From contig NZ_VORY01000027.1 in NCBI RefSeq assembly GCF_007997295.1, positions 1-36,812 on the forward strand: DNA of 36,812 nucleotides, in the 5' to 3' direction. The first letter of the stretch is position 1, and each line of letters opens with the position of its first letter. The stretch comes from Gillisia hiemivivida (GTDB lineage: Bacteria > Bacteroidota > Bacteroidia > Flavobacteriales > Flavobacteriaceae). Of this stretch, positions 30,944 through 33,810 are shown piece by piece. Under the pieces are notes generated by a model. That model did no database searches and had not been told where the DNA came from. It was given only the letters and a program-made list of their open reading frames with translations. Position numbers and translations under genes: made by a program.

Positions 30944-32992
30944 CTAATCTAAAATAGCTAGAATTTCACCTGCTTTCAACTTCTTTAGGCCTTCAATGAT
31001 CTTCTTGAATTCTGCGGTACATGCCTTAGATTTCTTCTGAAGTATTTCTGTAGCCGTAACATCTTTTTCTATCAAGATCCTTACTTCCTCCATCAATTTA
31101 CTGAGATTGTCTGCTTGAATATAGAACATAGACATAGTGCTTTTATGTATAAGATCTCCAAGCATTTCGGTACTGTTGGCTTTTACAGCATCCAGAAATT
31201 CTTGCTCATAAGTTACTAGTGCATCTAAGGTGCTTTTGATGAATTTATCTAGATAAAGTGCATTGTGGTTAGACATCTTTACAAATTTTGAGACATTAAA
31301 AGATGGACTCTGCCCTAGTTGAGGTTGTGACGTGTTTTTTACGGCTTGAATCTCTTTCTCATCTACCATTTCCTCAACCGACTCTAGATTGGTCAGAGGA
31401 TATTTTTTCATCTCTTGGTGGTCTGGATTATGTAAGTAATGTACTAACATTTCCAGTAGTTTTTCTGGCTGGAAGGGTTTAGGTACGTGATCTTGGAACC
31501 CTGCCTTTTTAAGTTTGTAGTTGATCTCTCCTCTTTCTGAAGCAGATAAAGCTATTAGAATAGGTTGTTTTTTCAGTTTCAGAGCACGAATTTCCTTAGC
31601 AGTTTTATATCCATTCAACTTGGGCATGTGTAAATCCAGCAAGATAAGATCAAAGTCCTTTTTCCTTAACATTTCTATCGCTTCAAAACCGCTTTTTGCC
31701 GATTCGTTTTCGAGTTTCCAATCATTTAAAAACTGAGCAGTTATATAAATATTGGCAGGATTGTCATCTACTACCAGCACTCGGGACGATTCTAAGATTT
31801 TTCGATCTTCTGTGCTAATTTTTTTATCCTTAGGGCAAGAATAATTTTCATTAACCTCGTACCAGATCTCGAAGCTGAATTCGGAGCCTTGACCCTCTAT
31901 ACTTTGCACTTTCATTTCTGATTTATGCAGGTGGAGTAGTTTTTGACTAATTGTAAGACCAAGCCCAGTGCCGCCATATTCCAGATTCACATCGTAACTA
32001 GCCTGAGAAAATTCCTGAAATATAGCTTCCAATTTGTCTTGTGGGATTCCCATTCCCGTATCACATACCTTAAATCCAAACAGGGACTCATTACTTCCTG
32101 TTTCCAGATGTTCAATAATAATTGATACAGATCCCTTTTTGGTGAACTTAATGGCGTTTCCAATAAGATTGGTAAGTATCTGCGAGAGCTTTATCGGATC
32201 TCCACTTAGTTCTTGTGGTACATTTTCGTCCATTTCTACCAACAAGTCTATATTCTTTTCTGCAGCCTTTACCCTAAAAGTTTGCTGCAGCATTTTAACC
32301 ATATTTTTAATATTGAAATCTCGTTTTTCCAGTTCCACCTTTTCAGCTTCAATTTTACTCAGATCTAGCAAATTATTTACCAGCCCTAGAAGATTTTCAG
32401 ATGAGAGCAGTAAGATTCTTGCATATTCCTTTTGATCCTCGTTGAGGTGGGTTTTACTTAAGAGATTTCCAATTCCTAAAATAGCATGTAGCGGAGTTCT
32501 TATTTCATGACTAATAGTAGATAAAAACTCTGCCTTAGCATGAGAATCTTCTTCAGCCTTCTTTTTGGCTGCCATTAGTTCCTTTTCATATTTCTTACGG
32601 TCGGTAATGTCAAATATGGTAGCTCGATAGGTAAGCGGATTCTTTCCTTTGGCGGGGATCTCATTCACATTTATAAGTCCGGGAAAAGAAGAACGGTCTT
32701 TTTTAACAATATCAAAATTGATTTCCTGAATAAAGCCTTGCATGCGTATTAATGGAAAAAAATGAGTTTCGAAAAAAATTTGCCCTCCTATCTTAAAAAG
32801 ATCGGGGAATTTCTTAACATAGATTATCTCCTCTTTGGTAGAATTAAGCCAAGAGAGTAGGGTGCGGTTAATATTATATATAGTCCCGTCTGTTAAGAAT
32901 GAAACATAGCCGCACGGGGAATTTTCATATAATTCCTCTGCAGTTTCAGTAACTTTCCCTTTAGGGATACTATGCTTATTTGTTATACTCAT
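30944..32992 (-). CDS. PAS-domain hybrid histidine kinase/response regulator coupled to RsbQ-like hydrolase
   Basis: A 682-residue cytosolic hybrid kinase without membrane segments. Domains in order: PAS (about 15-135; SPCGYVSFLTDGTIYNINRT, GGQIFFETHFFPLIRMQG), HisKA with phosphoacceptor His162 (FLSTISHEIRTPLHAI), ATPase domain (NLIGNAIKFT, DTGMGIPQDK, GTGLGLTIS), a receiver with VVDDNPAN, phosphoacceptor Asp453 (LILLDLHMPK) and the KPFQPEK lysine, and a C-terminal helical region that looks like a degenerate HPt with His616 (DLIHKSTMSM). The ATG overlaps the stop of the upstream hydrolase as ATGA. PAS domains with the ETHFFPLIRMQG segment are, as I recall, the kind found beside RsbQ-type hydrolases, in place of the RsbP phosphatase of Bacillus. 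Confidence 0.93.
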   Translation of the reverse strand: MSITNKHSIPKGKVTETAEELYENSPCGYVSFLTDGTIYNINRTLLSWLNSTKEEIIYVKKFPDLFKIGGQIFFETHFFPLIRMQGFIQEINFDIVKKDRSSFPGLINVNEIPAKGKNPLTYRATIFDITDRKKYEKELMAAKKKAEEDSHAKAEFLSTISHEIRTPLHAILGIGNLLSKTHLNEDQKEYARILLLSSENLLGLVNNLLDLSKIEAEKVELEKRDFNIKNMVKMLQQTFRVKAAEKNIDLLVEMDENVPQELSGDPIKLSQILTNLIGNAIKFTKKGSVSIIIEHLETGSNESLFGFKVCDTGMGIPQDKLEAIFQEFSQASYDVNLEYGGTGLGLTISQKLLHLHKSEMKVQSIEGQGSEFSFEIWYEVNENYSCPKDKKISTEDRKILESSRVLVVDDNPANIYITAQFLNDWKLENESAKSGFEAIEMLRKKDFDLILLDLHMPKLNGYKTAKEIRALKLKKQPILIALSASERGEINYKLKKAGFQDHVPKPFQPEKLLEMLVHYLHNPDHQEMKKYPLTNLESVEEMVDEKEIQAVKNTSQPQLGQSPSFNVSKFVKMSNHNALYLDKFIKSTLDALVTYEQEFLDAVKANSTEMLGDLIHKSTMSMFYIQADNLSKLMEEVRILIEKDVTATEILQKKSKACTAEFKKIIEGLKKLKAGEILAILD

Positions 32993-33810
32993 TGAGTCGT
33001 ACTTGCAAGATAATTCTTTATAGCAAGGGTAGTTTCCTCCGGAGCACTAAGATTAGGGCAATGTCCGGTTGCATTTAAGATCTGAAATTCAGAATTCTGA
33101 AGATTATCGTGTACATATTGGCCCACTTCTACGGGAGCTATAATATCTTGAGAACACTGTAATACCAAAGTGGGTACAACTACAGATGTCAAGTCTTTAC
33201 GATTATCAGATAAAAAAGTAACTTTGGCAAAATGTTTTGCGATCTCCGGATTGGTTCGGCAAAAACTATTGGTAAGCTCTTCACCCAACTCCGGTTTATC
33301 TGGATTACCCATTATAACAGGAGCCATATTAGCAGACCAACCCAAGTAGTTACTGTCTAAGGCCTCCATAAGATCGTCTATGTCTTCTTTATAAAAACCA
33401 CCCACATAACCATCATCATTAATATATCTTGCAGAAGGTCCTATCATAATTAATTTTGAAAATCGTGAAGGCTCCAGATTTGCTGCAAGTGCAGCTATCA
33501 TACAACTTACCGAATGAGCTACAAAAATCACATCTTTTAAGTCCAGCTCTTCGCAAATCTCTAAGATGTCTTCTGAATACCCCAAAAGCTCATCGTATTT
33601 TTCTTTGGAATAAGAATTATTGTCAGAATTACCTGCACCTACGTGATCAAAGAGAATGACCTTATAGTCTTTTTCAAATTCAGGGTACACATAGCGCCAC
33701 ATATGCTGGTCGCAACCGTACCCATGAGCAAATAGCATAGGCTGAATTCCGCTGCCAAGTACCTTGACATTGTTTCTTTGTAGTGCGGAAATCTTTTCTA
33801 AGGAACTCAT
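32989..33810 (-). CDS. RsbQ-like alpha/beta hydrolase
   Basis: A 273-residue hydrolase that follows Bacillus subtilis RsbQ along its whole length, for example KVLGSG, HGYGCDQHMW, VILFDHVGAGNSD, FSKLIMIGPS, LQCSQDIIAP and GHCPNLS. The triad is Ser100 (AHSVS), Asp222 and His250, within four positions of the known RsbQ triad (Ser96, Asp219, His247). RsbQ activates its PAS-containing partner, RsbP, in the energy-stress pathway, probably by making or delivering a small hydrophobic ligand; the plant receptors D14 and KAI2 belong to the same family. Here the partner is the overlapping PAS hybrid kinase. The nucleophile-elbow sequence is AHSVS rather than the GHSxG consensus. Confidence 0.93.
   Translation of the reverse strand: MSSLEKISALQRNNVKVLGSGIQPMLFAHGYGCDQHMWRYVYPEFEKDYKVILFDHVGAGNSDNNSYSKEKYDELLGYSEDILEICEELDLKDVIFVAHSVSCMIAALAANLEPSRFSKLIMIGPSARYINDDGYVGGFYKEDIDDLMEALDSNYLGWSANMAPVIMGNPDKPELGEELTNSFCRTNPEIAKHFAKVTFLSDNRKDLTSVVVPTLVLQCSQDIIAPVEVGQYVHDNLQNSEFQILNATGHCPNLSAPEETTLAIKNYLASTTQ

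Follow-up and report, generated by a model that had tools for sequence, protein, structure and literature searches.

Working from 45 adjacent pairs, with the adjacency of RsbQ and PAS as the selection rule, Nadezhdin, Brody and Price defined the RsbQ-PAS module in 2011 and described its outputs as phosphatases, histidine kinases (three of these with a C-terminal receiver) and diguanylate cyclases (PMC3183031); the coupling to kinases and cyclases was restated in 2025 (PMC12143880). Here we analyze a pair of genes in Gillisia hiemivivida (Bacteroidota; Flavobacteriaceae), located in a window of 36,812 nucleotides (the whole stretch of contig NZ_VORY01000027.1 that was analyzed), which encode an RsbQ-type alpha/beta hydrolase and, immediately downstream, a PAS hybrid histidine kinase (Table 1). 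This pair is an RsbQ-PAS module of the histidine-kinase branch. The initial annotation of the window saw a novelty in the kinase that replaces the RsbP phosphatase, but such outputs were already published in 2011 and the kinase output is of a known kind. The present case adds a Bacteroidota set, a likely terminal HPt and a PAS domain of the DIT type. The terms 'Bacteroidetes' and 'Flavobacteri' are absent from the main text of the 2011 paper, its species figure aside (PMC3183031). The two gene products almost certainly act together as a single sensor, and we consider it likely that a ligand-recognizing hydrolase docks on the PAS domain and switches a kinase phosphorelay.

Comparison with described systems

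In Bacillus subtilis, where RsbQ and RsbP form the energy branch of the sigma-B pathway, RsbQ acts positively and its catalytic triad is required, the triad mutants being null; RsbP residues F55 and Y59 matter for the contact with RsbQ, and L48, F55, Y59 and E72 matter for signaling (PMC3183031). In 36 of the 45 published modules, PAS and output are separated by a coiled coil that is 21 residues or longer (PMC3183031), and an AlphaFold2 model of a 2:2 RsbP/RsbQ complex places RsbQ between the PAS domains and the linkers (PMC12143880).

Like the published modules, the Gillisia pair has the RsbQ homolog immediately upstream, the PAS domain in the most N-terminal position, a kinase or hybrid-kinase output and the signature residues; it differs from them in its Bacteroidota host, the DIT motif and the HPt-like tail that follows the receiver. 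With B. subtilis RsbQ-RsbP it shares the hydrolase and the PAS signature, whereas a phosphorelay kinase stands where RsbP has a PPM phosphatase. A search for SpoIIE-type PPM phosphatases (PF07228) found none in the Gillisia genome and recovered them in the B. subtilis control, and the four matches to RsbW-type kinases (HATPase_c_2, PF13581) in the Gillisia genome were all under the cut-off, which, at the level of profile matches, is in line with the absence of an RsbP-type or sigma-B route. The earlier statement that no sigma-B pathway exists here is consistent with these searches, but it does not make the output new in kind.

The plant KAI2, D14 and DAD2 receptors, which act via F-box and repressor proteins and, unlike the window pair, without a PAS kinase, are related in sequence to the window hydrolase. 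Among solved structures, B. subtilis RsbQ (1wom, E = 1.1e-87, 297 bits) is closest to this hydrolase, followed by an Oleispira hydrolase (3qvm) and then by plant KAI2 proteins, the best at about 1e-60. The topology of the plant receptors is essentially identical to that of RsbQ (PMC3548789), and by analogy we propose a receptor logic for the window hydrolase as well; the parallel with RsbQ-RsbP and with D14/KAI2 that had been drawn from the sequence is supported. In its order of HisKA, ATPase, receiver and probable HPt, the kinase resembles His-Asp-His hybrid kinases of the BarA, ArcB and TorS type, but its input consists of a PAS domain and a separate hydrolase, and it falls far under the curated cut-offs of these families.

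Genomic linkage of the hydrolase and the PAS kinase

We searched a sample of 299 genomes of the same family, with cut-offs of E 1e-40 for the hydrolase and E 1e-15 for the window PAS. The hydrolase was found in 16 genomes, including that of the window, and a PAS protein is encoded directly downstream on the same strand at all 15 hydrolase loci of the other genomes; these partners comprise six full hybrid kinases like that of the window, eight kinase-like proteins of 369-413 amino acids (aa) and one HWE-type kinase (L037). The reverse search with the window PAS retrieved 14 genomes, all within the 16 that carry the hydrolase, and 14 of the 15 PAS matches adjoin a hydrolase (the own genome counted), the remaining match being at a contig edge. 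The two hydrolase-bearing genomes missed in this search have an adjacent PAS under the cut-off, and no window-type PAS was detected at E 1e-15 in the 283 genomes without the hydrolase. The co-occurrence table (14/2/0/283) yields a Fisher p of about 3e-22, kinship ignored. Of the window's genus, the sample includes one further genome, which has neither the hydrolase nor the PAS at the cut-offs used; this suggests that the pair is gained and lost as a unit.

In a wider scan across many phyla, a PAS domain was found directly downstream at 72 of the 80 loci most similar to the query (the best 80 of at least 596, a biased selection and not a census), the other eight lacking it. Among 395 sampled genomes of the phylum, 22 have the hydrolase at E 1e-50, and 16 of 20 further loci, some of which may belong to species of the wider scan, have an adjacent PAS. 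The conservation of the pair as neighbors elsewhere had been set in advance as a check on the initial annotation and is borne out in the family and in the wider scan; the two-way linkage supports the functional partnership proposed there. When the flanks of the window were compared with those of 20 other kinase loci (30% identity, E 1e-10), the pair alone was in common. Furthermore, the distances between the hydrolases and those between the PAS domains are correlated (Mantel r 0.72, reached by 0 of 999 permutations), a correlation that reflects co-inheritance, not contact.

For the comparison of partners, 85 of 87 partner proteins were aligned with that of the window (alignment A2, 86 sequences); L023 and L026, which duplicate L059 and L075, were omitted here, in the hydrolase comparison and in the tail alignment A3. 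The output domains among these 86 query-biased partners are HATPase_c (53), HisKA (49), receiver (28), SpoIIE (25) and GGDEF (2).

Domains of the two proteins

The identification of the first gene product as an RsbQ-type hydrolase is confirmed by the open reading frame (ORF), the triad and the match to 1wom. All aligned hydrolases keep the triad, both the 86 that are paired with a PAS protein and the 8 that are not. The nearest named relative found is in Gillisia mitskevichiae (hydrolase 86%). The nucleophile elbow, AHSVS (window 33511-33519), has Ala98 at a position where the 15 other homologs of alignment A1 have Gly. The ATGA overlap of the two ORFs is present as described earlier, but it does not show the equal synthesis that it was taken to imply: the intergenic gap varies among relatives (starts picked mechanically), and the overlap says little on stoichiometry.

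In the kinase, HisKA, HATPase_c and Response_reg score well over the Pfam cut-offs, and PAS_9, located ahead of HisKA, reaches 25.9 bits, slightly below the 27-bit cut-off. The PAS fold is backed by the homologs (PAS_9 matches in 81 of the 86 partners) and by the model of a relative; phmmer with the window PAS alone found no solved relative at E 0.1. Given the positions of the SHEIRTPL and LLDLHMP motifs, His162 is expected to be the phosphoacceptor of the kinase and Asp453 the acceptor of the receiver. No membrane segment was seen in the kinase on inspection by eye; the sensor is probably cytosolic.

The C-terminal tail has no Pfam match at E 0.001. A tail alignment, A3, limited to partners of 630-720 aa and excluding L131 with its receiver-looking tail, gave a profile with weak matches to HPt chains from two sensor kinases (3myf, E = 0.069; BarA 3iqt, E = 0.24), in which the histidines align and the LIHK of the tail lies over the LIHK of BarA 3iqt; the candidate His is present in 15 of the 19 aligned tails. 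Judging from these matches, the tail is probably an HPt, so that a His-Asp-His relay would lead to an unlinked regulator. Of the five parts assigned to the kinase in the initial annotation, PAS, HisKA, ATPase and receiver stand, and the fifth is HPt-like on evidence that is weak but specific. A receiver search of the Gillisia genome produced 42 matches, by which the target regulator is not singled out.

Table 1. Coordinates of the Gillisia pair (positions in the window) and of the RsbQ pairs with a predicted STAS-fold partner (positions in the named loci)
Feature	Coordinates	Strand	Identifying features
RsbQ-type alpha/beta hydrolase, 273 aa	32989-33810	(-)	Triad S100/D222/H250
Hydrolase stop / kinase start ATGA overlap	32989-32992	(-)	
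PAS hybrid histidine kinase, 682 aa	30944-32992	(-)	Pfam domains
PAS domain, aa 27-131	32600-32914	(-)	Pfam PAS_9; RsbP-PAS signature C27, F73, H77, P80, E90, P104; DIT aa 128-130
HisKA dimerization/phosphoacceptor domain, aa 152-217	32342-32539	(-)	SHEIRTPL from aa 161
HATPase_c catalytic domain, aa 264-376	31865-32203	(-)	Pfam
Receiver domain, aa 405-516	31445-31780	(-)	Pfam Response_reg; LLDLHMP from aa 451
C-terminal helical, HPt-like region, aa 558-682	30947-31321	(-)	LIHKS from aa 614; candidate His616
RsbQ + STAS-like pair	L078 5998-7263		
RsbQ + STAS-like pair	L093 4366-5655		
RsbQ + STAS-like pair	L095 6016-7307		
RsbQ + STAS-like pair	L098 6007-7289		
RsbQ + STAS-like pair	L099 6010-7278		
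RsbQ + STAS-like pair	L108 5998-7273		
RsbQ + STAS-like pair	L116 6001-7272		
RsbQ + STAS-like pair	L124 6028-7305		
RsbQ + STAS-like pair	L142 4316-5604		
RsbQ + STAS-like pair	L143 3886-5151		

The PAS signature and the proposed mechanism

The register of the PAS domain was taken from the RsbP numbering of the 2011 paper, with F55-P86 ungapped on the window and an offset of one residue before Q53, so that RsbP F55, Y59, P62, E72 and P86 correspond to window F73, H77, P80, E90 and P104, and C10 to C27. At RsbP positions C10, L13, L48, Q53, F55, C56, Y59, E72 and P86, the window has C, V, F, Q, F, F, H, E and P; that is, C10, Q53, F55, E72 and P86 are identical and the other positions are hydrophobic or aromatic replacements. 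Across the 86 partners, the columns of F55, Y59, P62, E72, P86 and C10 hold F/Y in 82, H in 79, P in 84, E in 83, P in 71 and C in 75 sequences, respectively. The outer F-alpha positions F55 and Y59, together with the neighboring P62, are thus nearly invariant, and Q53 and C56, placed on the cavity side by the 2011 paper, are variable (R/K/Q and Y/F/H).

In the mechanism that we favor, the hydrolase would be the ligand-recognizing subunit (Model 2 of PMC3183031) and would dock, via the conserved F-alpha face, on the N-terminal PAS domain of a dimeric hybrid kinase. When a small hydrophobic ligand is bound or turned over at Ser100, this contact would be altered, the change would travel via the helix between PAS and HisKA, and the relay would be switched from His162 to Asp453, probably on to His616, and to an unlinked response regulator; the direction of control, the function of the HPt and the target of the relay are what we infer. 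The parts of the system, the degree to which they are conserved and their two-way linkage in the genomes are directly observed. The hydrolase is favored as the sensor because the outer F-alpha positions are nearly invariant and the cavity-side positions variable, and because some hydrolases whose triad is intact have a partner other than a PAS protein (see below). About 20 residues separate the end of the PAS (131) from the start of HisKA (152), and the model of a relative has a single long helix after the PAS. In this model, a linked hydrolase-PAS AlphaFold2 prediction for the Christiangramia relative L058, both domains are folded (mean predicted local distance difference test score, pLDDT, of 93.3), and superposition of the hydrolase half and 1wom gives a root-mean-square deviation of 1.0 over 267 alignment columns. 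The underlying alignment, A7, is a subset of hydrolase-only and PAS-only rows and replaced A6, which was discarded for N-terminal bits of PAS rows in the hydrolase columns.

Several observations weigh against this mechanism. Pull-downs of the purified proteins were unsuccessful without cell extract (PMC3183031), and the L058 model, a monomer from a mostly unpaired alignment, has a predicted template modeling score (pTM) of 0.70, the relative placement of the domains not being fixed. The co-inheritance of the two proteins could have its source in shared regulation without contact. The window PAS ends with FDITD (aa 127-131), that is, with a DIT motif, which is absent from the aligned RsbQ-paired PAS domains of the 2011 set (PMC3183031); the pattern D[IVLM][TS] occurs at the end of 18 of the 86 RsbQ-adjacent PAS domains. 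Because adjacency is the selection rule of that paper, we read the presence of DIT as diversity within the module, which in its wider sense is not defined by the absence of the motif. With respect to the relay, designed helical proteins and another helical protein outscore the HPt chains in the tail search, and the candidate His is missing from four of the 19 tails (L063, L069, L079 and L103), which suggests that these particular tails would be without phosphotransfer. With respect to the linkage, four of the 20 further phylum loci have no adjacent PAS within 1.5 kb, one of them being ended by the contig; of the other three, L157 and L167 have different downstream genes and one is merely 40% identical.

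These four loci are also what a coincidence of neighbors would lead one to expect, a metabolic esterase lying next to an unrelated PAS kinase. Such a coincidence is strongly disfavored, to the point of being negligible, by the two-way linkage in 299 genomes and the PAS at 72 of the best 80 loci, the other neighbors of the window not being common to the loci of its relatives.

A more serious rival is Model 1 of the 2011 paper, in which the hydrolase makes a small molecule and passes it into the cavity of the PAS domain, the latter being the sensor. The idea of the initial annotation, that the hydrolase makes or presents a small hydrophobic signal, is one of the two models published there (PMC3183031). 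An invariant triad in 94 of 94 aligned homologs and the null phenotype of the published triad mutants speak for such delivery, as does the frequent binding of ligands by PAS domains (PMC3183031). However, the F55, Y59 and P62 positions are nearly invariant while the cavity-side positions vary, and eight Pontibacter or Adhaeribacter hydrolases keep the triad intact without an adjacent PAS; we regard product delivery as possible but on the unlikely side. It is improbable that the hydrolase terminates the signal, the PAS binding a cellular ester or lactone and the hydrolase destroying this ligand to turn the kinase off. A hydrolase that appears from its sequence to be active, encoded upstream of the sensor, would fit this explanation, but the role of RsbQ in B. 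subtilis is positive (PMC3183031), and the conserved F-alpha face suggests contact, not a common substrate.

RsbQ with a predicted STAS-fold partner

The eight PAS-less loci among the best 80 of the wider scan all come from Pontibacter or Adhaeribacter, which we take to belong to the family Hymenobacteraceae. At all eight, the next gene on the same strand encodes a protein from a single family; seven of these proteins have 134-152 aa, and in L116 the match to the profile extends 33 codons ahead of the first usual start. Pfam gave merely a weak DUF7793 match in one of three of these small proteins that were searched, and NCBIfam no match in four of them. An AlphaFold2 model of the L078 protein, from eight aligned rows, has a pLDDT of 91.4 and a pTM of 0.86, and Foldseek ranks chains from SpoIIAB:anti-anti-sigma complexes first among its matches (two with E <0.001) and SpoIIAA-like proteins next; RsbS (6jhk, TM 0.69/0.79) and RsbV appear at E of about 0.04, in a part of the list that includes unrelated enoyl-CoA hydratases of low TM. 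The model thus predicts a STAS-fold partner of RsbQ, similar to SpoIIAA and RsbS.

We examined ten genomes, namely the eight with these STAS pairs and those of the PAS pairs L103 and L070. The L103 and L070 genomes have a second RsbQ with a STAS-like protein beside the PAS pair, and the L116 genome also has a PAS pair, so that both types of pair are present in three genomes; in the seven remaining genomes of the eight, searches with the RsbP-type PAS profile gave no matches or only weak ones (E 1e-8, frames of 892-1802 aa). At the ten STAS-pair loci, the hydrolase and the STAS-like gene are the only plausible conserved genes, the rest being antisense ORFs over or beside the hydrolase. The STAS-like protein is multi-copy, with 3-9 matches in each of the ten genomes. 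In the Gillisia genome, its profile had no match, in a search run without a control that shows little.

Two positions, 59 and 186, consistently distinguish the hydrolases paired with a PAS from those paired with a STAS-like protein, and positions 188 and 190 do so for the most part; these positions may mark the partner-binding side, although the comparison is of 86 with 8 sequences, the 8 from one family, and relatedness could explain the differences. No description of an RsbQ-STAS pair was found among the titles and abstract openings of the papers listed, a passage in PMC10634447 being a mere citation, and this pairing is more novel than that of RsbQ with a PAS kinase. We suggest tentatively, as an idea with somewhat less than even chances, that RsbQ is a portable receptor for small molecules, of the KAI2/D14 lineage, with the PAS as just one of its partners, and that in Bacteroidota a PAS phosphorelay kinase (as in the window) or a STAS-fold protein (as in Pontibacter and Adhaeribacter) would read it. 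If so, one widespread ligand would be reported to unlike outputs by docking and not by delivery into a PAS cavity.

The ligand of RsbQ-PAS modules was not known when they were described in 2011 (PMC3183031), and we came across no later report among the papers retrieved. The receptors for karrikins and strigolactones in plants are close relatives of RsbQ. For ligand hunting, a kinase output offers a direct in vitro readout (autophosphorylation), and the PAS-paired and STAS-paired hydrolases can serve as natural controls in asking which of the partners reads the ligand. The Gillisia pair is real and well conserved, and its interest is twofold: it is useful in the search for the RsbQ ligand, and it led to the alternative partner, the STAS-like protein.

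Genomic surroundings and variants of the pair

Short chance ORFs aside, the pair is isolated in the window, 481 bases from a divergent Na:alanine symporter gene and, downstream, 530 bases from an M20 peptidase gene. Scans for sigma-70-type promoters (18 promoter-like sites versus 13.1, standard deviation 3.5, in shuffles), for the Bacteroidota-type promoter pattern (1 match versus 0.43 expected) and for terminators (1 terminator-like site versus 2.0 in shuffles) were uninformative.

A conserved third gene was considered for loci of the window's type and rejected, common flanks being limited to L023, L024, L025, L027, L028 and L060. These six loci represent a second Flavobacteriaceae subtype, located after gldF, gldG and dnaN and before mnmE (the gene names were checked on L024 only; relatives of these genes are present in the six loci). 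An apparent hydrolase fusion of 1683 aa in L074 was rejected as a wrong-frame extension in GC-rich DNA because the hydrolase starts at an internal Met and a normal PAS neighbor follows.

The tails without the candidate His belong to two Corallococcus, one Archangium (three myxobacteria) and one Pontibacter, and retain the HPt-like tail itself. The kinase-like partners in L035 (9590-10741) and L036 (7590-8783) have no HATPase_c match in Pfam at E 0.01, the L035 partner having no Pfam match whatever at this threshold; possibly, to judge from these profiles, they are degenerate kinases that are still paired with RsbQ. The HWE kinase pair of L037 (6279-8431) comes from a genome of the same family that is 68% complete (G202) and may lie on a foreign contig; the same assembly also has a contig-edge PAS 70% identical to that of the window. 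Finally, L165 (1-2310) encodes a divergent RsbQ (40% identical) and, directly behind it, a protein that spans 500 aa or more and that the PAS profile does not match; this protein may be another type of partner.

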